Part shown: piece after piece, positions 17,060 to 33,225 of the stretch
Position numbering within the stretch: position 1 is the stretch's first letter
How the letters are laid out: each line of letters begins with the position of its first letter
Assembly (NCBI GenBank): GCA_009861545.1
Contig: VXME01000138.1
Span: 1 to 33,276, forward strand
Length of the DNA stretch: 33,276 bases
Reading direction: 5' to 3'
Origin: Acidobacteriota bacterium
Lineage (GTDB): Bacteria > Acidobacteriota > Vicinamibacteria > Vicinamibacterales > UBA8438
Notes under the pieces: generated by a model
The model's input: only the letters and a program-made list of their open reading frames with translations
What the model was told of the DNA's origin: nothing
Database searches by the model: none
Made by a program: the position numbers and the translations under genes

Positions 17060-17090
17060 GAGTCGGCGCCGTAGAACGGCGCGGACTCCT
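17058..17090 (+). other. Strong hairpin between large- and small-subunit genes
   Basis: Starting inside the stop codon region, AGGAGTC (17058-17064) pairs with GACTCCT (17084-17090), and GCGCCGT (17066-17072) pairs with ACGGCGC (17076-17082). Only a G-G mismatch (17065/17083) interrupts the stem, and the loop is AGA. The stem has 14 pairs in total. There is no T tract downstream, so full termination is unlikely. It may act as an RNA processing or stability element that sets different expression of the two parts, or as a partial terminator. The remaining gap to 17160 is G-rich and otherwise empty. Confidence 0.6.
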
Positions 17091-17159
17091 GGAGGGTTGG
17101 TTGGGCGCCAGGCGGAGCCGGGAGGCGACGATTGGCGGGCGAGCAGGGGGGCCGGGGCC

Positions 17160-17840: not shown

Positions 17841-18555
17841 GGTCCCTGCCGCCATGTCCAGGCCTGCACCGCGATTCGTGCGCCATACCGGCATCGCGGC
17901 GCCCTTCCGGCAGCCGGATCTCGAGAGCGAGCTCATCGCCCCGGTCGGTGAGGAGCTTCGGGATCTCCACGCAGTGCACCTGGATCCGGGCGACGTACCT
18001 CTCGACGCTCACCGGCACGACGGTTCCTGGACCGGCCGGCATGCGTTTCCTGGCTTCCGGTACCGGCCCGACGGCACGGAGGATCCGGACTTCGTCCTCA
18101 ATCACGAACCCTATCGCGAGGCCTCCATCCTGCTTGCCGGACGGAACTTCGGGCAGGGCAGCCAGCAGGCGTATGCGGTCATCCGGCTCCGGCAGTGTGG
18201 GATGCGCGTGGTCATCGCCCCGAGCTTCGGGCCGGTGTTCCATGACGACTGCTTCGACTTCGGTCTCCTCCCGGTTACGCTGGACGAGCAGGTGGTGCAA
18301 GCGCTCACGGATCGCGTCCGGGCGAATCCCGGGATCGAGATGACGGTCGACCTGGAGAGACAGGTGGTCGAGCGTCCGGGCATGGCGACCGCTCCCTTCC
18401 GGATCGACTCGCGACGGCGCGAGAGCCTGCTCCAAGGCGTGGACACTACGCTGCTGGAACGGTTTCGGCACGACGCGAACGCCGAGGAGATGCGGGAGAG
18501 GGATCGGCGTCGCCGCCCCTGGATCTACGACGACCCCGACCGTCGCGAGCCGTGA
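17827..18555 (+). CDS. LeuD/aconitase-swivel-like small subunit 2
   Basis: A 242-aa protein from ATG 17827; ATG 17854 (MSRPAPRFVRHTG) is an alternative start giving a more usual length. It overlaps the end of subunit 1 by 14 bases, implying coupled translation. LeuD features are FRYRPDGTEDPDFVLNHEPY, ILLAGRNFGQGSQQAYAV and IAPSFGPVFHDDCFDFGLLPVTL, the last being closer to true LeuD than in subunit 1. The key loop, however, reads GSQQAYA instead of GSSREHA. S112 remains, but the second serine, arginine, glutamate and histidine are lost. The C-terminus (MRERDRRRRPWIYDD) matches subunit 1, so the two are tandem paralogues. It may have a structural or modified-substrate role in a three-protein complex. 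Confidence 0.8.
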   Translation: MAAAEVPAAMSRPAPRFVRHTGIAAPFRQPDLESELIAPVGEELRDLHAVHLDPGDVPLDAHRHDGSWTGRHAFPGFRYRPDGTEDPDFVLNHEPYREASILLAGRNFGQGSQQAYAVIRLRQCGMRVVIAPSFGPVFHDDCFDFGLLPVTLDEQVVQALTDRVRANPGIEMTVDLERQVVERPGMATAPFRIDSRRRESLLQGVDTTLLERFRHDANAEEMRERDRRRRPWIYDDPDRREP

Positions 18556-18580
18556 GGGTGCGCCGGTTATCCGAACGACT

Positions 18581-18814
18581 TCATTCGGCCGGGTCTGGTG
18601 CTGGAAGGTGGAGCCGCTCCAGAGTGGCGAGGCGCTGGCCTACCTTTCCGAACTCGATCTCGACGGCCCGCAGCCGATCATCGAGACGCCGAAGATCGTT
18701 TCGGACCTCGGCGACGTCGCTCCGCAGGCCGGCGAACAGAGTGACGACGACCGCGATCACCGCCACGGTCGACCCGACGATCGCCGCCAACAACGCCTTC
18801 GTGTCGCTACTCAC
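18581..18814 (-). CDS. Small single-pass membrane protein with coiled coil
   Basis: A 77-aa protein starting at GTG 18814. It has a short polar N-terminus, one strong membrane helix (residues 8-28, LLAAIVGSTVAVIAVVVTLF), then a heptad-like coiled coil (about 31-70: VAEVRNDLRRLDDRLRAVEI). A Pro-rich tail ends the protein. Small proteins of this plan are common and mostly uncharacterised; some resemble phage holin-associated or DUF1640-type proteins, but I cannot assign one. Strong hydrophobic and heptad patterns in a GC-rich region support it being real. It is convergent with the second LeuD-like gene (25-base gap). Confidence 0.6.
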   Translation of the reverse strand: MSSDTKALLAAIVGSTVAVIAVVVTLFAGLRSDVAEVRNDLRRLDDRLRAVEIEFGKVGQRLATLERLHLPAPDPAE

Positions 18815-18888
18815 TACACTTGGAGCGTAGCACGTTCACGCGGCGAATCGTCTCGGTAGACGTAGCCCCCGCTTGCCCGAACAGCATG

Positions 18889-19341
18889 CTATTTCGGCGT
18901 GCCCGACGAGACCGTCGATCGGATGCGGTAGCCGGTCTGCGGGTCGCCCTCACGATACGTCGCGTGACACGCGTCGCAGGCGCGAGTGACATCTCCGAGG
19001 ACCGCGGCCACTGCCGCGACATCGACCGTTGTCGCCGACAGGGCCTCGTCGAGCGCGTCCAGTGCGGCCACGGCCTCCCGGTTCATCCGCACGGCGTCGC
19101 GTTGCCCGTCGGTCTCCCACTCGGGTCGGGTGGAGGCAAGCACCTGTCGTGCGAGCGCCAGGGGCGTCTTGGCCTCGACGTACGACGCCGACCCGAGGGC
19201 CTCCTCCACGCCTTCGAGGGCGGCGCCGATGGTCTTCATCGCGCGGTCGAACTCCTCGGGGCCTACCACCTTCTGCGCGGCCGCGAGGGTCCCCGTTCCG
19301 ACCACGATCGCGACCGTCCACCCTGCCAGGCTACGTGTCAT
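18889..19341 (-). CDS. Exported cytochrome c-prime-like monoheme protein
   Basis: A 150-aa protein from ATG 19341, with GAGG-type ribosome binding sequence upstream (complement of 19342-19349). The signal peptide covers residues 1-22 (LAGWTVAIVVGTGTLAAAQ). The mature part is helical with one heme c site near the C-terminus, C122-D-A-C125-H126 followed by ATYR. This position and the CxxCHxxYR ending are typical of the cytochrome c-prime four-helix family. Such proteins handle NO or act as periplasmic electron carriers; the role here is not determinable. The gene starts 41 bases after the end of the ankyrin gene on the same strand and may be co-transcribed with it. A longer open frame reading through from 20931 is a shadow of the ankyrin gene. 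Confidence 0.8.
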   Translation of the reverse strand: MTRSLAGWTVAIVVGTGTLAAAQKVVGPEEFDRAMKTIGAALEGVEEALGSASYVEAKTPLALARQVLASTRPEWETDGQRDAVRMNREAVAALDALDEALSATTVDVAAVAAVLGDVTRACDACHATYREGDPQTGYRIRSTVSSGTPK

Positions 19342-19382
19342 TCGACCTCGTGGATCATCGATCGCGCATCCGGCGCGGCCGT

Positions 19383-20963
19383 CTACCGGGGCGCCACCAG
19401 CCCTCGCAGGCGCTCGTGGATGGTCCCCGGGATTCCCAGGCGGGTATTGGCTCCGAGCTCCGCGAGCAGGGCCGCCGTCTCCGGCCACGCCTGGTAGTGG
19501 AACGACTGCTTGGCGCCCTCGGCGAGGCGGAACGCCGTCCGGCCCCGCCAGTCGCGCGCGTCGATGTCGGCGCCGCGCTCCACGAGCAGTCGGATCACCT
19601 CGTTGAGGCCGCTGAAGGCGGCGCAGTGCAACGCCGTGAAGTCGCCCTCGTTGGTGGCGTTCACGTCCATGCCGGCCTCGATGAGAATCCCGATGGCCTC
19701 CTCCGCCATGGGCTGGCGGGCTGCCCGCGGCGTGTTCGTCCAGTGCCCCCACCGCCCGCAACCGGCCGCGGCCATCATCGGCGTGGTGCCGTCGTTCGAC
19801 GTGATCTCGGGCCGGGCGCTCGCTCTTAGCAGGCGGCGCAGGACGTCGCCGGTGGAGCTGTGCGTGCTCCACCCGTTGCGCATCCGGCCCGGGCCGGGGT
19901 TGGTCGCGAACGCCGCCACCCACAGCGGCGTGGCCCCGGCCACGTCTCCGGTGCCCGTCGCGAACGTGTCGTAGGCGCCATTGCGGACGAACCCCTGCTC
20001 GGTCACGTCCGAGGCGGTCATGCGCGCGTTGGGGTCGGCGCCGCGGGCCAGCAGGGCGTCGACCAGCGCCAGCCGCTCCCGGAGCGGGAGCCGGCCGGCC
20101 CGCGCGCCCGCGCCGCCGTGCTTGCGGTTCCATGCCTTCAGCCACGTGCGGACAGGGCCGGCGGCGGCGTGCAGCGCCGTGACGCCGTCGACCGCCCCGT
20201 TCGGATCGGCGCCCCGCTCCAGCAGAAAGTGGGCGAATGCGACCTGCCCGACGATGACCGCGTAGGCCAGCGGATGCGCCCCGTCCGAACCGGTCTCGTC
20301 CACGCCGGCCCCCGCGGCGAGCAACAGCTCGGCCGTCTCGATGTCGCCGTTGCGGGCGGCGGCGATCAGCGGCGAGAACGCCTGCCCTGGTCGGGGATGC
20401 ACGTCGGCGCCCCGCTCGACGAGCGCGCGGACGATGTCGAGGTGGCGCCCGGCCACCGCCCACATCAGCGCCGTTTCGTGGGTGGCGGCGGTGGCGGCGT
20501 CGACGCCGGCCCCGCCGGAGAGCAGCGCCCGCACGACCTCGAGGCTGCCGGTGCGCGCGGCGGTCATCAGCGGCGTCAGGCCGTTCGACTGGGCCGCGTT
20601 CGGATTCGCCCCGGCGGCGAGAAGCCGCTCGACCATCGACGCGCTCGCGTTCTCGCAAGCCCGGGCGAGCGGCGTCACGCCGTGATCGTCCGCGGCATTC
20701 ACGTCGGCGCCGGCGTCGAGGAGCAGCTCGACCGCCTCGCCGTCGTCCCAGTGGGCCGCCCACAGCAGCGCCGTCGCGCCATCGGCCCGCGCGGCGTTCA
20801 CGTCGAGATCCTCGTCGGCGAGCAGCCCGCGCAGGCCGGCGGTGTCGCGCTCCGCCATCGCCTCCACGAGGCGCAGGTCCGGCTCGGCAGCCGCCGCGCT
20901 GCCGACCGCTGCCGCGAGGAGGACGAAACACAGGCTGGCGAGACCCTTCGTCAGGACGCGCAT
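19383..20963 (-). CDS. Exported ankyrin-repeat protein
   Basis: A 526-aa protein. ATG 20963 lies five bases after GGGAGGAG (complement of 20968-20975) and opens a signal peptide (MRVLTKGLASLCFVLLAAAV, cleavage near SAAAAEP). The mature part consists of about eleven ankyrin repeats, seen as GATALLWAAHWDDGEAVELL, GVTPLARACENASASMVERL, GLTPLMTAARTGSLEVVRAL and so on, with GADVNA-type turns between them. The middle (about 300-400) has longer, irregular linkers. Ankyrin repeats bind other proteins. An exported ankyrin protein with a periplasmic cytochrome next to it recalls the bacterial pattern in which ankyrin proteins accompany periplasmic redox enzymes, but the partner is not known. Confidence 0.88.
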   Translation of the reverse strand: MRVLTKGLASLCFVLLAAAVGSAAAAEPDLRLVEAMAERDTAGLRGLLADEDLDVNAARADGATALLWAAHWDDGEAVELLLDAGADVNAADDHGVTPLARACENASASMVERLLAAGANPNAAQSNGLTPLMTAARTGSLEVVRALLSGGAGVDAATAATHETALMWAVAGRHLDIVRALVERGADVHPRPGQAFSPLIAAARNGDIETAELLLAAGAGVDETGSDGAHPLAYAVIVGQVAFAHFLLERGADPNGAVDGVTALHAAAGPVRTWLKAWNRKHGGAGARAGRLPLRERLALVDALLARGADPNARMTASDVTEQGFVRNGAYDTFATGTGDVAGATPLWVAAFATNPGPGRMRNGWSTHSSTGDVLRRLLRASARPEITSNDGTTPMMAAAGCGRWGHWTNTPRAARQPMAEEAIGILIEAGMDVNATNEGDFTALHCAAFSGLNEVIRLLVERGADIDARDWRGRTAFRLAEGAKQSFHYQAWPETAALLAELGANTRLGIPGTIHERLRGLVAPR

Positions 20964-21119
20964 TCTGCTCCTCCCGCGTTCGGTTCCGTGCGAATGTCGA
21001 TTCCGGCGACTCGCCACCACGTCGGGAACATCCTAGCTTTCTTGCGTGGGGGCGGCAAAGGTGATAGGTAGAGCGCAGGGCGTGGGTGGGCGCCCGCGGG
21101 AGACCCGGGGCTGCATACT

Positions 21120-23561
21120 ATGTCCACGATGAGAGTGCTTGGCGCGGCATGCTTGGCGGGGATTGTGATGGTGGTGGCGGCGCCGCAGCACGCCGCCGCC
21201 GGGACAGAGGCGCCGTCACGCGCGCTGCTCGACCGGTACTGCGTCACCTGTCACAACGAACGGCTGCAGACGGCCGGTGTGATGTTCGACCGGGTCGACA
21301 TCGACCGCGCCGATCTGCACCGTGAGCTCTTCGAGAAGGTCGCCCGCAAGCTCCGTAGCGGGCAGATGCCGCCGCCGGGCCGCCCGCGGCCGGAGCCGGC
21401 GGCGGTCGACGCCTTCGTGACGGCGCTCGAGGCGGAGCTCGACCGGGTAGGCGCGGCGGCGCCCGACCCGGGGCGCGTGGCGTCGCACCGCCTGAATCGA
21501 ACCGAGTACGTCAACGCCGTGCGCGACCTGCTCGATCTGGAGATAGACGGGGAGGCGCTGCTCCCGAGCGACATGGCGGGCTTCGGCTTCGACAACAACG
21601 CCGACGTGCTCGCGATGACCCCGGCGTTGATGGATCGCTACATCACCGCGGCCACCAAGGTCAGTCGCCTCGCGGTCGGCACGCTGGAGAATCGCCCGGC
21701 GATCAGCACGTACAGGCTGCCGAACGCGGCGCGGCAGGAAGCCCGGATGGGCGAGGACCTGCCGTTCGCGACGCACGGCGGCCTGGCGGCGCGCCATGCG
21801 TTCTCGCTCGACGGCGACTACGTCTTCCGGATTCGGTTGCAGCGGAGCGATATCGGGGGGACGATCCGCGGCAACATCGCGGAGCGCGAGTACCACATCG
21901 AGCTGCGCGTCGACCACGCGCTCGTCGAGCGCCTCACGGTGGGCGGCGCGTTCGCGGGGCAGGTCCGGTACACCTTGTCGGGAGGCGGCATCGCGCCGCC
22001 GGACGACGATGTCGTGCACCAGCAGGTCGCGCTCTACAACCAGACGGCCGACGAGGGTCTGGAGGTGCGCCTGCCCGTCAGGGCCGGCACGCGGCTCGTG
22101 TCGGCGGCGTTCACCGACACGGCCCCCTCCGCGTCGGCCGGCGTGGGCGACAACGTGGTGGCCGGCATCGCGTCGCTCGAGATCCATGGTCCGTACGGCG
22201 GGAAGGTCCCCGAAGAGACGCCGAGCCGCCGGCGCGTTCTCGTGTGCCGGCCGAGCGGTGCCCACGACGAGGAGCCGTGCGCGAGGAGCATCATGGGCAC
22301 GCTGGCCCGGCGGGCATACCGCCGCCCGGTCACCGACGTCGACCTCGCACCGCTGATGGAGATCTTCGAGATCGGGCGCAGAGCCGGGGGCTTCGAGACC
22401 GGCATCGCGCGAGCCCTGGAAGCGCTCCTGACCATGCCGGCGTTTCTCATGCGCGCCGAGGTCGATCCGGTAGGCGCTCCCGCCGGGACCATCTACCCAC
22501 TAAGCGACGTGGAGCTGGCGTCGCGCCTGGCGTTCTTCCTGTGGCGGAGCATTCCGGACGAAGAGCTGCTGGATGCGGCCGTCCGCGGCCGACTGCGCGA
22601 TCCGGTCGTGCTGGAACGGCAGACGCGCCGGATGCTGGCGGATCGGCGGGCCGCCCGCTGGATGGGCGACTTCCTCGGGCAGTGGCTGCAGGTGCGCAAC
22701 CTGCGGACCATGGTGCCGGATCCGGTGCGCTTCCCCGGTTACGACAGCACCCTGCGCGACGCGTTGATGAAGGAAACCGAGCTGTTCTTCGAGAGTCAGG
22801 TGCGTGAGGATCGCAGCGTGCTGGACCTGTTGCGCGCCGAATACACCTTCCTCAACGCCCGGCTCGCCGAGCACTACGGCATCGAGGGCGTCCATGGCAG
22901 CCACTTCCGGCGCATGCCGGTCGCCGATCCGGCGCGGGCTGGGCTCCTGGGGCACGGGAGCGTCCTGACGGCGACCTCGTATGCGGACCGGACGTCGGTG
23001 GTGCTCAGGGGCAAGTGGGTGCTCGAAACGCTGCTCGGCTCGCCGCCGCCGCCGCCACCGGCCAACGTGCCGCCGCTTCCGGAAAACGACGGCAAGAGCG
23101 AGCCGGCATCGCTGCGGGAGAGGATGGAGCAGCATCGAGCGAACCCGGTGTGTGCGACCTGCCACGCCAACATGGATCCGCTGGGCTTCGCGCTGGAGAA
23201 CTTCGACGCGATCGGGAGGTGGCGCGAGCGCGACGAGGGCGCGCCGATCGACTCCGCGATTACGTGGAGAGATACGTCGATCGACAGCCCGAAGACGTTC
23301 CGCGAAGCGTTGTTGCGACAGGGCGAGGACGAGCTCCTGCGCACGATCGCGGAAAAGCTGCTGACCTACGCCCTCGGTCGCGGCGTCGACTATCTGGATG
23401 CGCCCACGGTGCGCCAGATCGTGCGGGAAGCGGCGCGCGACGACCATCGCTGGTCGTCGTTCGTCCTCGGCATCGTGCGGAGCGCCCCGTTCCAGCAGCG
23501 GATCGTGCGGGACTCGGAGCCGGAAGAGCGTGTTGCCGCCCACGTCGGGGGCGGACAGTAG
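21120..23561 (+). CDS. Secreted multidomain cytochrome c-like protein (DUF1587/1592/1588/1585 type)
   Basis: An 813-aa protein. A signal peptide (MRVLGAACLAGIVMVVAAP) starts at residue 4, so ATG 21129 is an alternative start. A heme c site is C41-V-T-C44-H45, followed by GVMFDRVDID. Then come the domains typical of this planctomycete/acidobacterial family: HRLNRTEYVNAVRDLLDLE (DUF1587), a beta-rich insert around 220-370, RRAYRRPVTDVDL to FFLWRSIPDEELL (DUF1592/1595), a Pro run then C678-A-T-C681-H682-ANMDPLGFALENFDAIG (DUF1588), and LLTYALGRGVDYLDAPTVRQI (DUF1585). Function is unproven; proteins of this kind pair with DUF1552 partners in putative outer-surface redox or polymer-degrading systems, as here. 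Its last codons lie in an exact direct repeat. Confidence 0.9.
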   Translation: MSTMRVLGAACLAGIVMVVAAPQHAAAGTEAPSRALLDRYCVTCHNERLQTAGVMFDRVDIDRADLHRELFEKVARKLRSGQMPPPGRPRPEPAAVDAFVTALEAELDRVGAAAPDPGRVASHRLNRTEYVNAVRDLLDLEIDGEALLPSDMAGFGFDNNADVLAMTPALMDRYITAATKVSRLAVGTLENRPAISTYRLPNAARQEARMGEDLPFATHGGLAARHAFSLDGDYVFRIRLQRSDIGGTIRGNIAEREYHIELRVDHALVERLTVGGAFAGQVRYTLSGGGIAPPDDDVVHQQVALYNQTADEGLEVRLPVRAGTRLVSAAFTDTAPSASAGVGDNVVAGIASLEIHGPYGGKVPEETPSRRRVLVCRPSGAHDEEPCARSIMGTLARRAYRRPVTDVDLAPLMEIFEIGRRAGGFETGIARALEALLTMPAFLMRAEVDPVGAPAGTIYPLSDVELASRLAFFLWRSIPDEELLDAAVRGRLRDPVVLERQTRRMLADRRAARWMGDFLGQWLQVRNLRTMVPDPVRFPGYDSTLRDALMKETELFFESQVREDRSVLDLLRAEYTFLNARLAEHYGIEGVHGSHFRRMPVADPARAGLLGHGSVLTATSYADRTSVVLRGKWVLETLLGSPPPPPPANVPPLPENDGKSEPASLRERMEQHRANPVCATCHANMDPLGFALENFDAIGRWRERDEGAPIDSAITWRDTSIDSPKTFREALLRQGEDELLRTIAEKLLTYALGRGVDYLDAPTVRQIVREAARDDHRWSSFVLGIVRSAPFQQRIVRDSEPEERVAAHVGGGQ

Positions 23562-23638
23562 GCGCGCGTAGTCCAGCGCCTCCGACAGCCGCGACAGCAG
23601 CGTGTTGCCGCCCACGTCGGGGGCGGACAGTAGGCGCG
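23527..23638. repeat. Exact 40-bp direct repeat, 72-bp spacing
   Basis: Positions 23527-23566 and 23599-23638 are identical for 40 bases (AGCGTGTTGCCGCCCACG at the start, AGTAGGCGCG at the end), with 32 bases between. The first copy covers the last codons and the stop of the DUF1592 gene; the second lies in the gap before the DUF1552 gene. The unit contains GCCGCCC and GGGCGGA, which pair imperfectly. It could be a recent tandem duplication or part of a dispersed repeat family. On the minus strand both copies read as a similar peptide (RLLSAPDVGGNTL), but no gene is supported there. Confidence 0.85.
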
Positions 23639-23688
23639 GGAGCGCGTCGCCGGGAGGCAGCGCGTCGCCACGACGCGGGGAGAAGCCC

Positions 23689-25038
23689 ATGTTCATCACC
23701 AGGAAGCACTTGTCCCGGCGTGCGGTGCTGCGCGGCGCCGGCGCCACCCTCGCCCTCCCGCTGCTCGACTGCATGGTGCCGGCCCTGACCGCCCTCAGCC
23801 GGACGGCGGCGGCGCCGGCGCGGTTGCGCCGGCTGGGGGTGTTCTACGTGCCCAACGGCATGTCGATGGGCTACTGGTGGCCGAGGACGGAAGGACCGCT
23901 GCAGGAACTGCCGCCGACGCTGCGGTCGCTGGGGGCGCTCAAGGACCGGGTTCTGTTGCTGGGCGGCCTGGCCGACAAGCCCGCGGACCTCATGGAAGGG
24001 GGCGGCGATCACGCGCGATCGGCGGGCACGTTCCTGACCGCGACCACGTTCAAGCTGACCACCGGCGCCGACGTGTACGCGGCGGTGTCGATGGACCAGG
24101 TGGCGGCGCGGGAGCTCGCCCGGGAGACGCAGCTCACGTCGCTGGAGCTCGGTATCGAGTCCAACGCGATGGTGGGCACCTGCGACGGGGGCTCGAGCTG
24201 CGCCTACACGAACACCGTCGCGTGGCGGACGCCGACCACGCCGTTGCCCGTCGAGCGGGACCCGCGCGCCGTCTTCGAGCGCCTGTTCGGCACCAGCGGC
24301 AGCACGGATCCCGCCGCGCGGCTGGCCCGGCTCGAGCGCGATCGGACCATCATCGACGCCGTTTCCTCCGAGCTGAAGCGCCTGGAGCGGCTCCTGGGGG
24401 CCGGCGACCGGGCCAAGGTGTCCGAGTACGTCGACTCGGTGCGGGACGTGGAGCGGCGCATCCGCACCGCCGAGCGGCAGAGCTCGCGCGAGCTGCCGCT
24501 GGTGGACGAGCCGGCGGGCATTCCGGACGACTACGCGACGCACGCGAAGCTCCAGATGGACCTGCTGGCGCTCGCCTACCAGACCGATCTGACCCGCGTC
24601 AGCACCTTCATGCTGGGGAAGGAGGTCAGCGGCCGGGCCTATCCCGAGATCGGGGTTTCCGACTCGCATCACCCCTTGTCGCATCACCAGGACGAGTACG
24701 GCAAGCTGGAGCGCCTGCACCGGATCAACGAGTACCACTTCCAGCAGTTCGCCCACCTGGTGGAGAGAATGGAGGCGATGCCGGAAGGCGACGGCACGAT
24801 GCTGGACCACACGGTCTTCCTGTACGGGACCGGCATCAGCGACAGCAACACGCACTTCCACGACGACCTGCCCGTCGCGGTCGTCGGGGGGCAGAGCGCC
24901 GGGATCAGGGCCGGTCGCTACGTGCGGCACCCGCAGGGGACGCCGATCGCGAACCTCTACGTGTCGCTGCTCGACCGGCTCGGCGTGCACGTCGACAGCT
25001 TCGGCGACAGCACGGGCCGGCTCGAGACGCTGACCTGA
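23689..25038 (+). CDS. DUF1552 family protein with Tat signal
   Basis: A 449-aa protein. ATG 23689 begins a twin-arginine signal (HLSRRAVLRGAGATLALPLL, R10 and R11), and GGGGAGA lies just upstream. Characteristic DUF1552 segments are GVFYVPNGMSMGYWWP near residue 50, LLLGGLADKPADLMEGGGDHARSAG with GTFLTATTF, a later SMDQVAARELA and the C-terminal LSHHQDEYGKLERLHRINEYH. The fold resembles the DUF1501/sulfatase-alkaline phosphatase group but no activity is established. Pairing with the DUF1592 cytochrome (gap of 127 bases, same strand) is the conserved arrangement in Acidobacteria, Planctomycetes and Verrucomicrobia. Tat export implies folding with a cofactor or assembly with partners in the cytoplasm. 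Confidence 0.9.
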   Translation: MFITRKHLSRRAVLRGAGATLALPLLDCMVPALTALSRTAAAPARLRRLGVFYVPNGMSMGYWWPRTEGPLQELPPTLRSLGALKDRVLLLGGLADKPADLMEGGGDHARSAGTFLTATTFKLTTGADVYAAVSMDQVAARELARETQLTSLELGIESNAMVGTCDGGSSCAYTNTVAWRTPTTPLPVERDPRAVFERLFGTSGSTDPAARLARLERDRTIIDAVSSELKRLERLLGAGDRAKVSEYVDSVRDVERRIRTAERQSSRELPLVDEPAGIPDDYATHAKLQMDLLALAYQTDLTRVSTFMLGKEVSGRAYPEIGVSDSHHPLSHHQDEYGKLERLHRINEYHFQQFAHLVERMEAMPEGDGTMLDHTVFLYGTGISDSNTHFHDDLPVAVVGGQSAGIRAGRYVRHPQGTPIANLYVSLLDRLGVHVDSFGDSTGRLETLT

Positions 25039-25040
25039 CG

Positions 25041-25388
25041 AGATTCGGGAGAGCGCAGGATATCGCCGCCCGGTTCGACGACGCGGACATGCTGGTGCGC
25101 TCCATGGAGCAGGGGCGCGATCTCGCCGCCACGCTCGGCGGCAACTCCTGCGTGCTCATGCGAGGACACGGCGCCGTGGTGGCGGCGGGCTCGCTCAAGC
25201 AAGCCGTGATGATTGCCATCTATCTCAAGCTCAATGCCGAGGTGCAACTGCAGGCGATGGCGATCGGGACGCCGCGGGGTCTGTCGGAGCGTGAGGTCGA
25301 GCTATCCCGCGCGACGCAGCTCTCGCCGCTCGCCCTCGACCGCGCCTGGGAGTACTTCTGCGTGCGCGCCGGCGTCGATCCGATCTAG
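25041..25388 (+). pseudogene. Truncated class II aldolase/adducin-family gene (C-terminal remnant)
   Basis: In the frame ending at the stop 25386-25388, the sequence after the DUF1552 gene reads like the C-terminal half of a class II aldolase. It has FDDADMLVRSMEQGRDLAATLG, then VLMRGHGAVVAAGSLKQAV, IYLKLNAEVQLQAMAIG and a final tail REVELSRAT. The RGHG and subsequent pattern is distinctive of the family. The N-terminal half with the usual zinc histidines and catalytic glutamate is absent, and upstream the frame only overlaps the DUF1552 gene. An internal ATG at 25089 could give about 99 residues but no complete enzyme. I read it as a remnant left by a deletion or insertion. The source gene is not in the window. 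Confidence 0.7.
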
Positions 25389-25424
25389 GCGTTCCCCCCG
25401 GCGTCGGAGCGAGAGCGGTCATTG

Positions 25425-25445
25425 CAGCTTCAAGAGCGGAAGCTG
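25425..25445 (+). promoter_or_regulatory. Inverted repeat upstream of the ATPase/DUF4276 operon
   Basis: CAGCTTC (25425-25431) and GAAGCTG (25439-25445) form perfect 7-bp arms around a 7-base loop, 40 bases before the ATPase start. It may be an operator or a leader hairpin. No promoter hexamers are clear. The Shine-Dalgarno AGGAGG follows at 25473-25478. Confidence 0.35.
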
Positions 25446-25484
25446 TCGCACGTCGTGTGAGAAGATCCGTACAGGAGGATGTCG

Positions 25485-26615
25485 ATGAGCGCAGGCAGGA
25501 TCGAATCGGTGCGCATCCGGGGGTTCAGATCGCTCGCAGATGTCGAGTTGTCCAATCTCCAGAATGCGAACGTCCTGATTGGCGCCAATGGCTCGGGAAA
25601 GTCCAACTTCATCCGATTCTTCGAGATGATGGGCTGGATGCTGCGGTCACGAAGACTCGGCGAGTTCGTTGAGCGGCACGGCGGCGCCGATGACCAACTG
25701 TACGGGGGCAACAGCGTTACCCCGCGCATGGAGGGTGAACTTGCGCTGCGTACCGGGAAGGGCCGCAACGATTATCGCTTTACGTTGTCTCATGCACATC
25801 CGGACCGATTCATCTTTACTGAGGAAGCATATCGATTCAGCCCGACCCACTATGCCACGGATGCGCCGTGGCAATGTATTGCCAATGGTCACCGGGAAGC
25901 CGGAATCGTCGACGTTGCGCAGGCTTGGTCATCCGTCGAACCCAATCCGGTCACTGCCAGGGTCATTGTCCACCTCTTGAAGGGCTGCCAGGTCTTCCAG
26001 TTCCACGACACGTCCGACACTTCGAACTTCAAGAAGCGCTGGGACACGGAAGACAACAATTACCTGCGTACGCACGGCGGGAATCTCGCCGCGGTCCTGC
26101 ATCGACTGGAGGAGGAAGACGTCAAGCGGTTCGATCTGATATGTCAGCATGTCAGGCGTGTATTGCCGGTTTTCGACCGCTTCCAGGTCGACGAGAGCTT
26201 TGGGAAAGTATCGTTGCGATGGAAGGCGTCCGGTACGGACAAGACCATCGGGGCGCACCTCACCTCGGACGGATCACTCCGCTTCTTTGCTCTGGTGACG
26301 TTGTTGAACCTGCCGTCCGAGATGTTGCCGGACGTTCTGCTGCTGGACGAACCGGAGCTCGGCTTGCATCCCGCGGCCATCGCCCTGGTTGGCAGCATGA
26401 TCAAGTCGCTCGCGATGGAGAGGCAGATCATCGTAGCGACGCAGTCGCCGCTACTCGTCGACGCGTTTGACCTGGAGGACATCGTCGTTCTGGAGCTGCG
26501 GGAGGGGCGGACCATGTTCCGCCGACCTGACGCCGAGGGATACAAGCGATGGCTCGATGAAGGCTTCATGCCGGGCGAGATGTGGCAGAAGAACCTCATT
26601 GGAGGGCGTCCGTGA
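25485..26615 (+). CDS. OLD/ABC-type AAA ATPase (AAA_21, COG4637-like), partner of DUF4276
   Basis: A 376-aa protein. ATG 25485 sits six bases after AGGAGG; an ATG at 25479 touches the Shine-Dalgarno and is less likely. It begins IESVRIRGFRSLADVEL, then Walker A GANGSGKS (33-40). The ABC-like half contains a signature-like TSDGSLRFFAL, Walker B PDVLLLDEPELGLHP (D288, E289) and IIVATQSPLLVD. Such single-gene SMC/OLD-like ATPases often pair with a TOPRIM or other nuclease partner in phage-defence modules. Here the stop overlaps the GTG start of the DUF4276 gene by 4 bases. The coding sequence is visibly less GC-rich than the surrounding genes, suggesting recent acquisition. A defence role is inferred, not shown. 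Confidence 0.88.
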   Translation: MSAGRIESVRIRGFRSLADVELSNLQNANVLIGANGSGKSNFIRFFEMMGWMLRSRRLGEFVERHGGADDQLYGGNSVTPRMEGELALRTGKGRNDYRFTLSHAHPDRFIFTEEAYRFSPTHYATDAPWQCIANGHREAGIVDVAQAWSSVEPNPVTARVIVHLLKGCQVFQFHDTSDTSNFKKRWDTEDNNYLRTHGGNLAAVLHRLEEEDVKRFDLICQHVRRVLPVFDRFQVDESFGKVSLRWKASGTDKTIGAHLTSDGSLRFFALVTLLNLPSEMLPDVLLLDEPELGLHPAAIALVGSMIKSLAMERQIIVATQSPLLVDAFDLEDIVVLELREGRTMFRRPDAEGYKRWLDEGFMPGEMWQKNLIGGRP

Positions 26616-27229
26616 TTCGTCTCGCGGTGTCGGTGGAGGGGCAGACGGAAGAAGAGTTCGTGAAGAGGGTCCTCGACGAGCACTTGCGACCGCTCGGCGT
26701 CGCGCCGGAGCCGATCCTGATCGGCGGCAGCGTTACAGTCAGGCGGCTCGCGTTCGATATGGCGCTACTGTATCAGTCCCATGATTCCGTGACCTCGCTT
26801 GTTGATTTCTATGGATTCCCGCGGAAAGGGGACAGGACTGTCGAAGCTATTGAGACACACCTTCGCGAGAAGATTGGTGAGCGGGTCGGTGGCGGCTGGG
26901 ATGAGAACAGAGTCTTCCCGTACGTCCAGATGCACGAATTCGAAGGCTTATTGTTTTCGGATGTCGAGGTTTTTGCGACGCAAATCGACTTCCCGCCAGA
27001 CTGTATGGCAGCGCTGCGGGCTGTGCGTGAACAGTTCACGACTCCAGAGGACATCAACGATAGTTGCGAAACGGCTCCGAGCAAGCGCATCGCACGTGCA
27101 ATTCCGAGGTACGACAAGCGTCTTCACGGTCCGATATTGGCCGAGGAAATCGGTCTCGACAGGATCCGTACGGAGTGTCCGCGATTCGATGCGTGGGTGA
27201 GGCGTCTGGAGACGCTGGGGACTGAATGA
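26612..27229 (+). CDS. DUF4276 family protein (TOPRIM-like nuclease candidate)
   Basis: A 205-aa protein with GTG start at 26612, overlapping the ATPase stop (GTGA) and preceded by GGAGGG at 26601-26606. The N-terminus LAVSVEGQTEEEFVKRVL (E9, E13) is the TOPRIM-like signature of DUF4276, followed by SLVDFYGFP (D65) and PYVQMHEFEGLLFSD with H108, E109 and E111. These acidic residues could bind metal as in TOPRIM nucleases. The protein is of normal length and all signature motifs are kept. Together with the upstream ATPase it forms a compact two-gene module resembling other ATPase-TOPRIM anti-phage systems in layout. Whether it defends against phage or acts in repair is unknown. Confidence 0.85.
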   Translation: MIRLAVSVEGQTEEEFVKRVLDEHLRPLGVAPEPILIGGSVTVRRLAFDMALLYQSHDSVTSLVDFYGFPRKGDRTVEAIETHLREKIGERVGGGWDENRVFPYVQMHEFEGLLFSDVEVFATQIDFPPDCMAALRAVREQFTTPEDINDSCETAPSKRIARAIPRYDKRLHGPILAEEIGLDRIRTECPRFDAWVRRLETLGTE

Positions 27230-27336
27230 CTCTCGTTGGAGGAGGGCTGAATCGGTTGCCCCCAATCGGCGAAAGGATGGCCGGTGTCGGCGTCGAGCGC
27301 CCAGAGTAAAGGAGCCCGCGGCTGGCGCGTCCCCCG

Positions 27337-30300
27337 TCAAGGCACGCGCCCGAGCAGTCGGAGCGTCGCACCGGTCGACGCATCGAGCGCCTCCAGCAAC
27401 CGGTTGCGCTCGCGCAAGAGCGTGATCTCGGCGAATCGATACGCGTCCCCCTCCGGATCCGCCGTCGCGAGCGTCCGCAGCGGTGACAGGCCGGGCAGCG
27501 CGCTCGAATCGAGGCCGGGATCCGGGTGAAACGGATCCGATGGCGAATAGAGCACGCGATGTAACGGCCGCAGGATGCGCAGGAGGGCCAGATCCAGCGG
27601 CGCGCCGAGCGGAAGGGTCGCGCCGGCGTCGACCTCCGACACCAGCTCCAGCAGGCGCCGTTGTCGTCGAATCGCCTCGGCGAGATCGAAGCGGTCGCCG
27701 GCCTCCTCCGCCCTGCGCTCGAGCGCCTCGCCCAGCGCGCTGACCTGGCTCGTCAGGTCCACTGGCAGTCGCGGAGCGCTCAGCAGGCGGGCCAGCGCGT
27801 CCCCGTACAGATCCGTGTCGGTCTTCAGGATATCGAAGTCGATCTTGTCGAACGTGTCGTCCGGGGTGTGCCACCACCAGTACCCGCCGTCCGCCTCCAG
27901 GCGCCGGTGATCGAGCTGCAGGAGCGGGAGGCCGACGCCGTTGAACGACTGATCGGAGTTGCGCCCCGGACGCACCGGCTCTACGGCTTCCCCGGTCCGT
28001 TGCGCCACGACGTCCGCGGCCAGGCCGCCGAGGGCGGCGCTCGCGGTGGCGCCGAAGCGGCGGGCTCCCATCTGCCCCATGCCGTCGATGTTGACGTAGG
28101 CGACGCCGCGCGTCCGCAGCTCGTCGAAGTGATGGTCGGCGAACCAGGTCGAGCCGCCGTAGCGGGCGTTGCTGTGTCCCGGCCACCAGGCCACGACGAG
28201 ACCGCGCCGAAGGCGCTGCCGATTGGCGTGGAAGGCACGGGCGAGCTCGACCATCGCGGCATTCGACGCCCCCTCGTCGGTGCCGCCGAAATACCAGGAA
28301 TCGATGTGCCCGCCGAACAGGACGAACGGCGCGTCGGGATCGGGGGCCGGAATCCGCGCGACGGCAAGATGGTGCTGGCGCCATCCCGCGTCCACGTCCG
28401 CCGTGATGCGCACGCGTGTCTCGCGCTGCGCGAGCCGGAACCGGAGCGCGTCGCCGTCGCTGCGCCGGATGTGCACGGCCGGGATCGCCGGCAGCCGGTG
28501 GTAGTTGCGCAGCGAGGGGGTTCCCCAGGTGCTCGTGACGATCAGATCGTTCAGACGCTCTTCGCGGTGCACGTACACGACGCCGGCCGCGCCGAGCATG
28601 GCGAGCCGATCGAGGGAGGCCCGTCCGGGATTGCCGTCGACCAGGACGACGGCCCCGGTCACGTCGGGGTAGCGGCTCCGCGCCGTACCAGGAGCGTCGA
28701 TCTCCCCGGCCAGCACGAGGCGCTCGCCCGTGCCCGGTTGGAGCGCGGGAATGTCGCGGACGTCGCCACCGTCGACCAGGTCGGCCTCCAGCCCGTCGGT
28801 GGGCGCCGAGAACGAGTAGGTGATCGCGTCGGGCGAAAAGGACCCGCCCACCACGTCCAGGCTCGCCGCGATCGGGGTGCTCGCGTATGCCTGATACGTG
28901 TGCACCTCGACATCGACGCCGTCGCGGCGCAGGGTATCGACGATGTGGTCTATCGCCGCCCGCTCGCCGGCGCTCCCGGAGGGGCGCTGGTGTCGCACGA
29001 TCGCGGCGGCCTGTTCCTCGAGCCCGCGGGGCGTGACCAGCTCGCGAACCGCGGCGGACAGCCCGGACTGCACCGTGGAGCGCTCGACGGCCCGCGGCGG
29101 CCCGTTCTTGTAGACGCGCCCCCCGCGCATCACGAAGACGACCCGGCCCAGCGCCGCCGGGTCGGTCAGCGGGTCGCCGTCGAGCGCGATGATGTCCGTC
29201 TCGTACCCGGTGGCAATGGCGCCGATCCGATCCTCCATGCCCAGCGACTCGGCGGCGAGCGAGGTGGCCGAGACCACCGCGTCCATCGGGTCCTGCCCGC
29301 CCTGCTCGACGTAGGCCACCAGCTCGTCGGCGTTGGAGCCGTGGCTGCCCGCATTGGCGTCGGTGCTGTAGACGATCCGCACGCCGGGGGTGGCCGCCGC
29401 GGCCCGGAAGAAGGCGAGGGCGCCCGGCCGCGACGCTTGCAGGTTGGCGAACCCCTCCAGCGTGTAGCCCCCGACGCCGGCGTAGCGGTCGCCATTCTCC
29501 TGGTAGTTGCGGAAGAGCAGGTCGATCTGGTTGCCGAGATACATGCCGCTTTCGACGAACACGTCGACGTCCCCCGGCTCGAGCATCCAGCCGTGCTCCA
29601 CCTGGGTGCACCCGGCGTCGGCGGTGAGGCGCAGCGCGTCCGATCGATGCAGGTGGACGACCGAGCGCAGTCCCCGGGCGCGCGCCTCCCCGCAGGCGGC
29701 CTCGAGCTGGGCGGCCGACAGGTTGGTGACGCCGCCGAAGCGGATGCTCGTCGACGCGAACACCTTGATGACGTCGGCCCCCGCCGCGGCCCGCTCGCGC
29801 ACGTACGCCCGAATCTCGTCCGGCGTGCCGGTGTCTTCGCGCACCGCCCCGAGCGACGACAGCAGCCGCGGGCCCGGAATCTCACCCCGGTCGATCCACG
29901 CCTTCAGTTCGGCGTCATCCGGCGAGCCCAGACTCTGCATCGTGGTGATGCCGTTCATCAGCGTGCGGTACGCGTTCTCGGCGCCGTGCAGCGTCACGTG
30001 GGCGGCGCTGGGGTCGTTCTCCTCCCGGTGCACCTTGCCGTCGTCGTCGAAGTGGTTGCCGATGTGCACGTGCGTGTCGATGTAGCCCGGCAGCACCGTC
30101 AGGGCGCTCAGGTCGTGGACGCGGTCGCCCCGGCCGCTGCCACGGGGCACGATCTCGGCAATCCGCCCGTCGTGCACCACCAGATCGCGGTCCTCCAGCA
30201 CCTCGCCGCGCCCGTCGAGGATACGGGCGGCGCGGAGCACCGTCGTTTCACCGGCGGGCTGACCGAGCGCCGGTGCCCCCGGCCACGCGCTGGCCAGGGC

Positions 30301-30357
30301 CAGCAGCAGGGCAAGGACGAGCAGGCGGTGCTCCGGGCGGTCGATTCGGTCGTTCAC
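27337..30357 (-). CDS. Amidohydrolase-M28 metallopeptidase fusion, exported
   Basis: A single uninterrupted 1006-aa frame from GTG 30357, with GGGAGGAA just upstream (complement of 30361-30368). The signal peptide is at about 1-33 (LLVLALLLALASAWPGAPALGQ). Domain 1 (about 38-420) is an amidohydrolase: H96/H98 (DTHVHIG), K198 (VIKVFAS), H235 (VVHLH), H255 (VEHGW) and D333 (YSTDANAG). Domain 2 (about 430-1006) is an M28-type peptidase with an inserted PA-like region near 500-640. It has H684 (GGHIDSW), D694 (GTDEGASNAA), D758 (NIDGMGQ) and H830 (WWHTPDDTFDKID). The usual catalytic Glu-Glu is replaced by PGHS (726-729, WWPGHSNARYGGSTW), a pattern I recall in a subgroup of M28 proteins. Both halves are of full length. 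It may degrade acylated or cyclic peptides in the periplasm; this is inference. Confidence 0.85.
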   Translation of the reverse strand: MNDRIDRPEHRLLVLALLLALASAWPGAPALGQPAGETTVLRAARILDGRGEVLEDRDLVVHDGRIAEIVPRGSGRGDRVHDLSALTVLPGYIDTHVHIGNHFDDDGKVHREENDPSAAHVTLHGAENAYRTLMNGITTMQSLGSPDDAELKAWIDRGEIPGPRLLSSLGAVREDTGTPDEIRAYVRERAAAGADVIKVFASTSIRFGGVTNLSAAQLEAACGEARARGLRSVVHLHRSDALRLTADAGCTQVEHGWMLEPGDVDVFVESGMYLGNQIDLLFRNYQENGDRYAGVGGYTLEGFANLQASRPGALAFFRAAAATPGVRIVYSTDANAGSHGSNADELVAYVEQGGQDPMDAVVSATSLAAESLGMEDRIGAIATGYETDIIALDGDPLTDPAALGRVVFVMRGGRVYKNGPPRAVERSTVQSGLSAAVRELVTPRGLEEQAAAIVRHQRPSGSAGERAAIDHIVDTLRRDGVDVEVHTYQAYASTPIAASLDVVGGSFSPDAITYSFSAPTDGLEADLVDGGDVRDIPALQPGTGERLVLAGEIDAPGTARSRYPDVTGAVVLVDGNPGRASLDRLAMLGAAGVVYVHREERLNDLIVTSTWGTPSLRNYHRLPAIPAVHIRRSDGDALRFRLAQRETRVRITADVDAGWRQHHLAVARIPAPDPDAPFVLFGGHIDSWYFGGTDEGASNAAMVELARAFHANRQRLRRGLVVAWWPGHSNARYGGSTWFADHHFDELRTRGVAYVNIDGMGQMGARRFGATASAALGGLAADVVAQRTGEAVEPVRPGRNSDQSFNGVGLPLLQLDHRRLEADGGYWWWHTPDDTFDKIDFDILKTDTDLYGDALARLLSAPRLPVDLTSQVSALGEALERRAEEAGDRFDLAEAIRRQRRLLELVSEVDAGATLPLGAPLDLALLRILRPLHRVLYSPSDPFHPDPGLDSSALPGLSPLRTLATADPEGDAYRFAEITLLRERNRLLEALDASTGATLRLLGRVP

Positions 30358-30403
30358 GGTTTCCTCCCTCACGCGTGAGCGTCGAGGTCCTGACTCCCCA
30401 TCA

Positions 30404-30422
30404 GTACGGCATGATGACGTAC
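30404..30422. promoter_or_regulatory. Inverted repeat in the divergent region of fusion and alpha/beta-hydrolase genes
   Basis: The 182-base gap between the divergent starts 30357 (minus) and 30540 (plus) contains GTACG (30404-30408) and CGTAC (30418-30422) around GCATGATGA. CATGAT (plus) and CATCAT (minus) inside it resemble -10 boxes for both directions. The evidence for a shared operator is weak. The AGAGGAG ribosome binding site of the hydrolase is at 30526-30532. Confidence 0.3.
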
Positions 30423-30539
30423 CCTGACCACAGTGTGCAGCACATGCATGCAGGCGGGCAGCGCGCGGCGCGCTCAACTGGCGCCCTCGGGGCGCGCGGT
30501 TGCCGGACGACGCGATGCAGTGAACAGAGGAGCAGTCGG

Positions 30540-31895
30540 ATGAGTGTGAATCGCAGGACGTTCATGTTGCGCGCCGGCGGCGCTGCCGTCGGACTGTCGG
30601 TGACGTTCGCGGAGAGGTCCGCGGCGGCACGGGTCCAGGCAGGCGCGTCCACCGCCGCGCAGTCCGAGCTGGAGGGGTTCGATCCGCAGGCCCTCTCCAC
30701 CCTCGTCAATGCCGACCCGGAGTTCGGGCTCGCCGCTCGCGAGTGGGATGCGCTCGTGCAGCTCGGACTCGATGACCACCACTACGGTGTCTCGATCCGC
30801 AACGGACGGGTGGTCGAGGTCGTTCCTGCAAGTCCCGGCGCGGACTTCGACGTCCGGATCGCCGGGCCGCTGGACGCCTGGCGCCAGGGCTTCGGCGACT
30901 ACGGTCTCCGGTCCTCCGGAGACGACCCCGATCACCGCTGGCCGTACCAGGCCGCCATTCTGCGGCTCGCGGCGCTCGTTCGCGAGACGCTGGGGGCCCC
31001 GGTTGCGGAGCACCTGGGCGACGAGGTCGACCGCGAGTTCGACTCGACGGTCGGACGCTACGTCTACGTCCGGATCCGCGGCATCCAGTACCGGGTGTAC
31101 TTCGAGGAAGCCGGTCAGGGCATGCCGATGGTGCTGCAGCACACGGCCGGCTCCGACAGCCGGCAGTGGCGACACCTCCTGGAAGACCGCGAGCTTCAGC
31201 AACGGTTCCGGATGATCGCCTACGACCTGCCGTTCCACGGGCGATCGCTCCCGCCGACCACGGACCGCTGGTGGACCACAGAGTACCGGATGGACACGCA
31301 GCACCTCATGGATTCGATCGTGGCGATCTCGAACGCCCTGAAGCTCGAGCGCCCCGTCTACATGGGCTGCTCGGTGGGCGGCTATCTCGCACCGGATCTC
31401 GCCTACTACCATCCCGACAAGTTCCGGGCGGTGATCGGGATCAACTCGTCGATTGCCGGAACGCGCGTCGAGAACAAGGGCAAGCCGTATGCGAGCCGCT
31501 TCAGCCATCCGCAGAACGGCACCGCCTACATCGGGTCCCGGATGTACATGATCACCTCCCCGGAGGCCCGCGAGGCGTTCCGGCGGGAGACGGGCTGGAT
31601 CTACAGCCAGGGCGGCCCCGGGATCTTCGGCGGCGACCTGTACTACTTCTCGGTCGAGCACGATCTCAGAGGGAAGGCGCACACCATCGACACCTCCAGG
31701 GTCGGGGTCCACCTCCTCAGCGGCGAGTACGATCCGACGGCCAGGGGGCCGGCGGAGTCGCTGGCGGCGATGATCGACGGGGCGACCTACGACGTCATCG
31801 AGGGCGGGTCGCACTTCGCGATGAGCGACGACTATCCGCGCTTCCGGAAGTACCTGCTCCCGGTGCTCGATCGGGTCTACCGGGAGCGGGGATGA
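30540..31895 (+). CDS. Tat-exported alpha/beta hydrolase with N-terminal extra domain
   Basis: A 451-aa protein. ATG 30540 follows AGAGGAG by seven bases and starts a twin-arginine signal (MSVNRRTFMLRAGGAAVGLS, R5 and R6). Residues about 45-150 form an extra domain (DHHYGVSIRNGRVVEVV, GPLDAWRQGFGD) that recalls sterol-carrier-like or regulatory folds but is not identified. The hydrolase part starts near 180 (YRVYFEEAGQGMPMVLQHTA). The nucleophile elbow is G-C-S278-V-G, the acid is probably D398 (SGEYDPT), and the base is H425 (GGSHFAMS), so the triad is complete. An ester or C-C bond hydrolase is likely. It is divergent from the amidohydrolase-M28 fusion and followed by a lipocalin-like gene. 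Confidence 0.85.
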   Translation: MSVNRRTFMLRAGGAAVGLSVTFAERSAAARVQAGASTAAQSELEGFDPQALSTLVNADPEFGLAAREWDALVQLGLDDHHYGVSIRNGRVVEVVPASPGADFDVRIAGPLDAWRQGFGDYGLRSSGDDPDHRWPYQAAILRLAALVRETLGAPVAEHLGDEVDREFDSTVGRYVYVRIRGIQYRVYFEEAGQGMPMVLQHTAGSDSRQWRHLLEDRELQQRFRMIAYDLPFHGRSLPPTTDRWWTTEYRMDTQHLMDSIVAISNALKLERPVYMGCSVGGYLAPDLAYYHPDKFRAVIGINSSIAGTRVENKGKPYASRFSHPQNGTAYIGSRMYMITSPEAREAFRRETGWIYSQGGPGIFGGDLYYFSVEHDLRGKAHTIDTSRVGVHLLSGEYDPTARGPAESLAAMIDGATYDVIEGGSHFAMSDDYPRFRKYLLPVLDRVYRERG

Positions 31896-31966
31896 CCCCG
31901 GCGGGCGCGACGGGCGCGCGCCTCGCGGCGTTGGCGTGACCCTGGCGGTCACCGGAGAATGAGGGA

Positions 31967-32497
31967 ATGCGGAGAACCATGCGACTGATTGAAAGACGTC
32001 TCATCGTGTTGGCAATCGCGTCGGTGTGTTTCGCGGCTCAATCGCCCGCGACGGCCCAGCAAGCGGAGGCGCCCGCGGAGCTGCGGTCGCTCCTCGAGGG
32101 CACCTGGGAGCTCGTCGAGTGGCACGTCGACGGCGAGGTGCTCCGTCCGCCGCACGCCGGCGGCCGCTGGTCGAATCACGACGGCGTCGTGGTGGCCACG
32201 TTCCACCGCGAGACGGCGGCCGGATTCGAGTCGTTCGTCGGCTACGGCACCTACGAGATGGACGCCTCGCACTGGAGCTACACGTACGAGCGGGTCCAGA
32301 CCGCGAGCGGACCGTCCGCCGGGGAAGCTGCGGTCGCCGTGCGGTCGGGGGGAGAGCCGCGGCGGTTCACGATTGTCCGCGACGGGGATGCCATTGTCCT
32401 CGAGGGCACGAACGATCGACGCGAATACGCGGACGGCTACTTCTCCTACATGCCGAACGGCAGGCTGTTGCGCAAGTACCGCAGAGTGGACGAGTAG
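31967..32497 (+). CDS. Secreted lipocalin-like domain protein
   Basis: A 176-aa protein from ATG 31967 (GGAGA eight bases upstream; ATG 31979 is an alternative). The signal peptide spans about residues 5-30 (RLIVLAIASVCFAAQSPATA). The mature part starts a lipocalin-like beta-barrel with LLEGTWELVEWHVDGE, followed by ATFHRETAAGFESFVGYGTYEMD and ending PNGRLLRKYRRVDE. This resembles the lipocalin_5/DUF1579-like groups that bind small hydrophobic ligands; no catalytic residues are visible. It follows the alpha/beta hydrolase by 71 bases on the same strand and could act on a related compound. Confidence 0.65.
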   Translation: MRRTMRLIERRLIVLAIASVCFAAQSPATAQQAEAPAELRSLLEGTWELVEWHVDGEVLRPPHAGGRWSNHDGVVVATFHRETAAGFESFVGYGTYEMDASHWSYTYERVQTASGPSAGEAAVAVRSGGEPRRFTIVRDGDAIVLEGTNDRREYADGYFSYMPNGRLLRKYRRVDE

Positions 32498-32618
32498 GAC
32501 TCCGGACGTCGACGGCGAGCGCGGCGTTCATGTCGGCGAGCGCGCTCATCGGCCTGGCGCCACTATCCGCGATGCGTGACCAGGCGGGAGAGCTGGACCA
32601 GCAATAGGCAGGAACGGG

Positions 32619-32626
32619 TATATATA
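32619..32626 (+). promoter_or_regulatory. TATATATA -10 candidate before the membrane protein gene
   Basis: TATATATA stands out in a GC-rich gap (32498-32667), 41 bases ahead of ATG 32668, whose ribosome binding site AGAGGAGG is at 32654-32661. No -35 is evident. The rest of the gap shows no supported gene. Confidence 0.4.
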
Positions 32627-32667
32627 GGGGGGTCCGATCCGGGAAGAACCGCCAGAGGAGGTCGAGC

Positions 32668-33225
32668 ATGAGCGCAGAGCCATGGAACGCCGACAGGGTA
32701 GCGGAGTTCGTCAGGAAGAACCTCCTCGGCATCGCGGCCGGGCTGGCGGTGGCAGTCGTGGCGGGGGTCGCGGTCTGGACCGTGAACTGCCCCTGCGAGG
32801 CGACCCCCGGCTTCATCCTGCTGGGTGACACCAATGAGGAGCCGGTGGCCGACTGGAGCTTCGCGAACGACGTCCCGCTGTGCGCGATCCAGATCTGGAT
32901 CTGGGGGCGGCCCCACTCGGTGAACGTCAACTGCATGGCCACGCCGGAGGGCGAGCTGTTCATCAGTTGCTCGGTCGGCGACCAGAAGTACTGGTGCCCG
33001 CGGGTGGGACAGGACCACGCGGGACGCCTTCGGCTCGACGGCGTCGTCTACCCCGTCTTCCTCAACCGCGAGATGGACCCGGCCCAGCTCGACCACGTCT
33101 GGGCCACGCGGATCCGGAAGCTGCAGAAGCCGGCGGTGCAGGCGCGGCAGCCCGGGGGCGGCGGCGCCCCGCCGCCGCGCGGCGGCCCGCGGCGGCGCCG
33201 CCGGCGACCCCTCCGGCCCGGGTAG
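32668..33225 (+). CDS. Membrane-anchored Cys-containing protein of unknown function
   Basis: A 185-aa protein starting at ATG 32668 after AGAGGAGG. One membrane helix covers about residues 19-38 (LLGIAAGLAVAVVAGVAVW), followed by an outside domain with six cysteines (C41, C43, C72, C89, C101, C110) that could form disulfides or a metal site. The region GELFISCSVGDQKYWCPRVG resembles split-barrel flavin or F420-like proteins, but I am not sure of that. The C-terminal 30 residues (Gly/Pro/Arg, ending PRRRRRRPLRPG) are low complexity and are encoded by an extremely GC-rich tract that may contain sequencing errors. No family is assigned. Confidence 0.65.
   Translation: MSAEPWNADRVAEFVRKNLLGIAAGLAVAVVAGVAVWTVNCPCEATPGFILLGDTNEEPVADWSFANDVPLCAIQIWIWGRPHSVNVNCMATPEGELFISCSVGDQKYWCPRVGQDHAGRLRLDGVVYPVFLNREMDPAQLDHVWATRIRKLQKPAVQARQPGGGGAPPPRGGPRRRRRRPLRPG

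Follow-up and report, generated by a model that had tools for sequence, protein, structure and literature searches.

A probable lineage-specific fusion of two exported hydrolases, an amidohydrolase and an M28-fold protein, in an Acidobacteriota genome

A stretch of 33,276 nucleotides of an Acidobacteriota genome (VXME01000138.1; hereafter the window) holds one uninterrupted reading frame of 1006 residues, at 27337-30357 (-), that encodes an amidohydrolase followed by an M28-fold domain. Overall, this is a probable lineage-specific fusion of two neighbourhood hydrolases, with ordinary parts, an unusual M28-fold clade and an eroding locus, and its likely origin is an in-frame deletion that joined two co-directional genes for exported hydrolases. 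The ancestor would have carried an exported amidohydrolase gene upstream of an exported glutamate carboxypeptidase II (GCPII)-like M28-fold gene on the same strand, and the deletion would have taken the stop codon of the former, the intergenic DNA and the signal peptide of the latter. If expressed and stable, the product would be one exported chain of 1006 residues, translated from the ribosome binding site of the amidohydrolase and carrying its signal peptide.

Architecture and active sites of the fused protein

The features of the fused frame are as follows.

27337..30357 (-): fused open reading frame, 1006 amino acids, GTG start at 30357 and stop at 27337
30360..30368 (-): ribosome binding site GGGAGGAAA, 2 nt upstream of the start codon (by eye)
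30259..30357 (-): N-terminus of the amidohydrolase, resembling a signal peptide, residues 1 to about 33 (by eye)
29107..30243 (-): amidohydrolase domain (residues 39-417), a relative of L-Arg carboxypeptidase Cc2672 (3mtw)
29077..29082 (-): fusion junction R426/S427 (CGC/TCC); at this point relatives carry the stop of the amidohydrolase or the leader of M28
27346..29067 (-): M28 half (residues 431-1004), resembling GCPII and the transferrin receptor
28447..28683 (-): insert resembling a protease-associated (PA) domain, residues 559-637 (Pfam, below cut-off)
28171..28185 (-): WPGHS motif (residues 725-729), occupying the position of the Glu-Glu pair of M28 peptidases

Directly 5' of the GTG the sequence reads AGGGAGGAAACC, and the signal-peptide-like N-terminus includes a helix at residues 8-23 in the structure model, which is of low confidence there. 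The initial annotation had described an amidohydrolase and an M28 domain in a single protein of 1006 residues, both of full length, and this is borne out by the unbroken frame, by two Pfam profiles over their cut-offs and by halves that are both complete in the assembly's fusion. The linker that it had placed near residues 420-430 contains the junction at 426/427, and its signal peptide and ribosome binding site agree with our reading.

In the N-terminal half, Amidohydro_1 (Pfam) covers residues 86-414 (E 1.1e-28) and its 101 bits against a cut-off of 25 place the half in the amidohydrolase superfamily, while residues 39-417 match Cc2672 with an E-value of 1.2e-41. The closest known systems are COG1228-type amidohydrolases, namely Cc2672 (3mtw), the Xaa-Pro dipeptidase 2qs8 and ochratoxinase (4c5y). 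As in these, all metal ligands (HxH, Lys, His, His, Asp) are present, at H96, H98, K198, H235, H255 and D333, and the protein is exported by appearance. All loci that cover these ligands (36-38, counting the window's own locus and duplicates) have the same residues; 38 of 89 loci gave a match. Unlike the COG1228-type enzymes, the fusion bears a second enzyme domain, and it lies far under the Xaa-Pro dipeptidase cut-off, with 211.9 bits for the equivalog NF051886 against a curated 500 (NCBIfam). In one published source, Cc2672 is given as an L-Arg/Lys carboxypeptidase and ochratoxinase as cutting before a C-terminal Phe, Ala or Leu (PMC11342369). The N-terminal half would similarly cut amide bonds ahead of a C-terminal residue, in the manner of COG1228 carboxypeptidases and prolidases. 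The structure model of this half is of low confidence and no use was made of it for domain packing.

The C-terminal half carries Peptidase_M28 (Pfam) at residues 665-844 (E 8.8e-18; 65.2 bits against a cut-off of 21.3), and the PA match at residues 559-637 stays below its cut-off (20.6 against 23.9 bits). The structure model is mostly confident here, and its residues 429-1004 align along the GCPII ectodomain 4ngr_A (VIA-align, Z 35.6, rmsd 3.1, 533 aligned residues), followed by transferrin receptor chains at Z of about 34-35; the best Foldseek E-value is 3.8e-30. As modelled, the half is a whole GCPII/transferrin-receptor-like fold along the full ectodomain. Unlike GCPII, to which it is 18% identical over that alignment, it has WPGHSN for the Glu-Glu pair and is joined to an amidohydrolase.

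Ordinary M28 enzymes have a Glu base beside a Glu metal ligand. Both are absent from this half and its relatives, since WPGHSN, without an acidic residue, stands at their place in every one of the 43 loci in which the motif is covered (45 of 52 loci gave a match). Eight more distant M28 relatives, at 30-35% identity, have WPGHS/T or WTGHS in 8/8 cases, and a different M28 protein of the window's genome carries GGEEEG at the motif. The remaining M28 ligands are present as H684, D694, D758 (Glu in 2 of 44 loci) and H830; alignments disagree by one position on how H728, S729 and N730 pair with the two Glu. The earlier statement that most metal ligands are present is therefore right, with the whole amidohydrolase set and these four M28 positions in place, but the absent Glu-Glu pair is an important gap.

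Judged by sequence, the WPGHSN clade would have either a His with a changed metal site or a pseudo-enzyme state like that of the transferrin receptor, and the former is favoured because the loop and the ligands are strictly conserved. As the Glu pair of M28 peptidases is missing, peptidase activity is not to be assumed. With a GCPII-type fold, most of the metal site and a His in or beside the place of the Glu base, the C-terminal half may be active, perhaps on a related compound of the same catabolic set as the N-terminal half. If real, the fusion also draws attention to a conserved M28-fold clade in which the Glu pair is missing. Elsewhere in the same genome (G000:C76:88466-89114), the profile match of another M28 gene is split across two overlapping frames, perhaps by a frameshift.

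The junction and its eroding locus

Three further features flank the fused frame.

27251..27318 (-): PQQ dehydrogenase remnant of about 21 residues, LLWALDADTGHPFADWGQPI... (tblastn E 1.2e-8)
26582..27229 (+): DUF4276 gene; in G003, which lacks the M28 gene, the match to it ends after residue 67
30543..31895 (+): divergent gene for an alpha/beta hydrolase, almost complete in G003 and present as C-terminal pieces only in G001

Separate proteins at the same locus in two congeners correspond to the two halves: an amidohydrolase in G003 (91-92% identity) and an M28 protein in G001 (95%), each genome having a close orthologue (E <= 1e-120) of one half only. The G003 amidohydrolase ends in ...PPRAPRR-stop and that of G019 in ...PPRAAER-stop, and the G001 M28 protein begins with its own signal-peptide-like leader of 29 residues, followed by STVQSRLSAAVRELV. 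Across the junction the window reads ...PPRAVER and then directly STVQSGLSAAVRELV. The join thus coincides with the missing amidohydrolase stop and sits just behind the missing M28 leader. A conserved stop and start at the junction in relatives had been named beforehand as a sign that a sequencing error created the fusion. Relatives do have the stop (G003) and the start (G001), but this does not point to a base-calling error. The window lacks both the leader of M28 and the DNA between the genes altogether, and such a loss takes a deletion or a wrongly made join; a single-base error was therefore rejected as the cause. If the deletion is real, a two-domain exported enzyme has been caught near its origin with its unfused parents kept at the same locus in congeners, and the fusion step can therefore be read base by base.

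The locus is deletion-prone, as the three congeners that have it show differing losses and the window keeps the PQQ scrap as a second scar. G003 aligns with the window, though with gaps, over 17959-26782 and 29090-33193; it has lost the M28 gene and most of DUF4276. G001 retains M28, lacks a close amidohydrolase, of which short-word blastn found no remnant upstream of M28, and has lost most of the alpha/beta hydrolase (residues 389-406 and 434-449 are left). The PQQ remnant lies directly behind the fusion's stop, a position occupied in G001, downstream of M28, by an open frame for a PQQ dehydrogenase, and the window's M28 with this remnant, as well as the stretch from 31700 on, matches G001. 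Neither close orthologue occurs in G002, the fourth genome of the genus (88% complete). The ancestral order along the window, judged from the overlapping losses in G001 and G003, would have been PQQ dehydrogenase, M28, amidohydrolase and alpha/beta hydrolase. The two genes are directly adjacent in this order in none of the genomes compared; the nearest kin with both, G013 and G019, have them on the same strand, separated by 9.0 and 8.9 kb that hold PQQ dehydrogenase, metallo-beta-lactamase-fold and beta-lactamase-fold genes.

The window has two further features of note. At 25479-27229 an AAA_21 ATPase gene overlaps the DUF4276 gene, a pair resembling defence gene pairs. A dispersed repeat of about 90 bp (17058-17143) has 42 matches in the genome, including the query place, and also occurs 5' of the amidohydrolase gene of G013 and G019.

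No other full-span match to the fusion was found among the matches listed in 100 genomes (own included), nor in 52 loci, in 28 genomes of the family (own included), in 43 genomes that carry an M28 orthologue (43 of the 45 M28 loci) or in 396 genomes of the phylum (own included, best two candidates each). These sets overlap, and the queries covered relatives of the 1006-residue protein rather than all amidohydrolase-M28 pairings. Relatives match one half or the other and most matches break near residue 427; of those that overshoot, up to residue 466 from the amidohydrolase side and from residue 337 on the M28 side, nearly all either read through stops or pass the break by some tens of residues (for example, G014 12-466 with two stops, G135 337-991 with three and G129 396-994 with none). 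Within the family, a close amidohydrolase (E <= 1e-120) is present in 9/28 genomes and a close M28 protein in 4/28, the window's genome (G000) counting in both. A widely conserved or recurrent amidohydrolase-M28 fusion was rejected, as no other full-span match stood among those listed, and the fusion appears from these comparisons to be a lineage-specific joining of two otherwise known enzyme kinds.

A serious rival, which we regard as quite possible, is that the fused frame is a by-product of decay, left open by chance in an eroding locus, and that the fused protein is of no benefit or is being lost. The differing losses in the three congeners, the second scar beside the fusion and the absence of the fusion from every relative among the matches listed are all consistent with decay. 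Against it, neither mature domain is truncated or out of frame, the ligands are intact, and dN/dS is about 0.15 (M28 half against G001, 0.153; amidohydrolase half against G003, 0.154), values that also cover the time before the join. The branch-specific changes are mixed. For the M28 half, with G013 as outgroup and 32 ambiguous codons left out, the G000 branch has 7 non-synonymous and 17 synonymous codon changes and the G001 branch 6 and 33; counted as residue changes, these are 12 against 7. For the amidohydrolase half, the G000 branch has 10 non-synonymous and 29 synonymous changes against 5 and 29 with outgroup G013, and 9 and 27 against 3 and 25 with G006; G022 (4 and 24 against 7 and 26) and G010 (5 and 25 against 8 and 25) give the opposite lean. 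The G000 branch thus seems to lean non-synonymous for M28 and, with two of four outgroups, for the amidohydrolase, which adds to the case for decay; the changes are too few to decide and not reassuring. These codon counts suggest neither clear decay nor clear proof against it.

Gene neighbourhood and joint function

Beyond the genus, the surroundings of 45 M28 loci were surveyed with 5 kb flanks, some cut by contig ends. Three gene rows, all with a WPGH-type M28 gene and from Gemmatimonadota, are the following.

L043:8-6710: amidohydrolase, PQQ dehydrogenase, GMC oxidoreductase and M28, on one strand
L050:1-6743: the same row, on one strand
L048:1585-7071: amidohydrolase (63%) divergent from M28, with a PQQ gene after M28 and no GMC oxidoreductase found

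By mechanical frame starts, the M28 frame begins 52 bases past the GMC frame in one of the first two rows and overlaps it by 4 bases in the other. A PQQ dehydrogenase at least 54% identical to the L043 or L048 query stands beside M28 in 20/45 loci, always on the same strand, a count that includes L043 and L048 themselves; weaker neighbours occur at three loci (33-36%) and, on the other strand, at one (27%), and 21 loci have none. GMC oxidoreductases lie near M28 in 7/45 loci, in one case on the opposite strand. Eight Gemmatimonadota genomes, chosen for having a PQQ neighbour, have 2-6 PQQ genes each, and chance adjacency to M28 in these would be of the order of 1-2% by a rough estimate made without a control. 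By comparison, G000, G001, G003 and G013 have at least 47-51 PQQ-dependent dehydrogenase matches per genome, and because PQQ genes are so many there, PQQ neighbours in Acidobacteriota were not counted as evidence.

Amidohydrolase relatives (E <= 1e-60) are present in 24 of the 43 M28-bearing genomes (which hold 43 of the 45 M28 loci). They lie within 10 kb of M28 in three, G102, G105 and G106, with gaps of 4.5, 0.5 and 4.2 kb and identities of 52%, 64% and 54%, and two of the three, those at 52-54%, may be paralogues. In two more genomes the amidohydrolase is on the same contig, more than 50 kb away.

The proximity of both genes in some other genomes, twice with a PQQ dehydrogenase and a GMC oxidoreductase between them, suggests a functional link, and the neighbourhood thus gives some support to functional coupling of the halves. 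Joint action of the halves on one substrate is plausible. That the fusion is a selected bifunctional enzyme making two successive cuts in one substrate, for which the initial annotation had suggested N-acylated or cyclic peptides, is rather unlikely. The nearness of the two genes elsewhere, and the two rows on one strand, argue for such an enzyme; the M28 half lacking the Glu pair, 40/43 M28-bearing genomes having no such amidohydrolase within 10 kb, and G001 and G003 each keeping one half argue against it. More speculatively, the WPGHSN proteins could form a GCPII-fold enzyme clade whose active site has been rebuilt around a His base and a changed metal site, and which belongs, together with a PQQ dehydrogenase, a GMC oxidoreductase and an amidohydrolase, to an exported catabolic module found in two phyla; the fusion would hard-wire two members of this module into one, probably dimeric, bifunctional enzyme. 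We put this forward tentatively. The fusion, if real, also suggests the other three as possible pathway partners. No literature combining the M28-fold clade with these three was found in a search largely confined to papers free of subscription, which is weak evidence of novelty.

Integrity of the assembled join

Fusion by deletion also has to be set against an assembly artefact, in which the contig falsely joins the end of an amidohydrolase gene to the interior of an M28 gene. The join is known from one assembly only and close kin carry separate genes, but an artefact is improbable, given that the join keeps the reading frame and falls at domain borders, the flanks are syntenic with G003, M28 with the PQQ remnant and the stretch from 31700 on match G001, and no unfused copy of either half exists elsewhere in the window's genome, where the next best matches are 48% and 29% identical. 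The microhomology at the join is 2 bp (CT) only, with relatives' sequence as a stand-in, and a true deletion is probably the simpler reading because k-mer collapse would need a repeat longer than this shared CT.

A repeat seen by eye beside the amidohydrolase 3' end in G022, G010 and G024 was considered as a cause of deletions; a core of it is absent from the window and occurs in 3/121 loci. Elsewhere the window encodes a Fic/DOC-family protein (13240-14421) and a protein with the PSD2-5/PSCyt3 (DUF1585-DUF1595) domain set known from planctomycetes (21120-23561).
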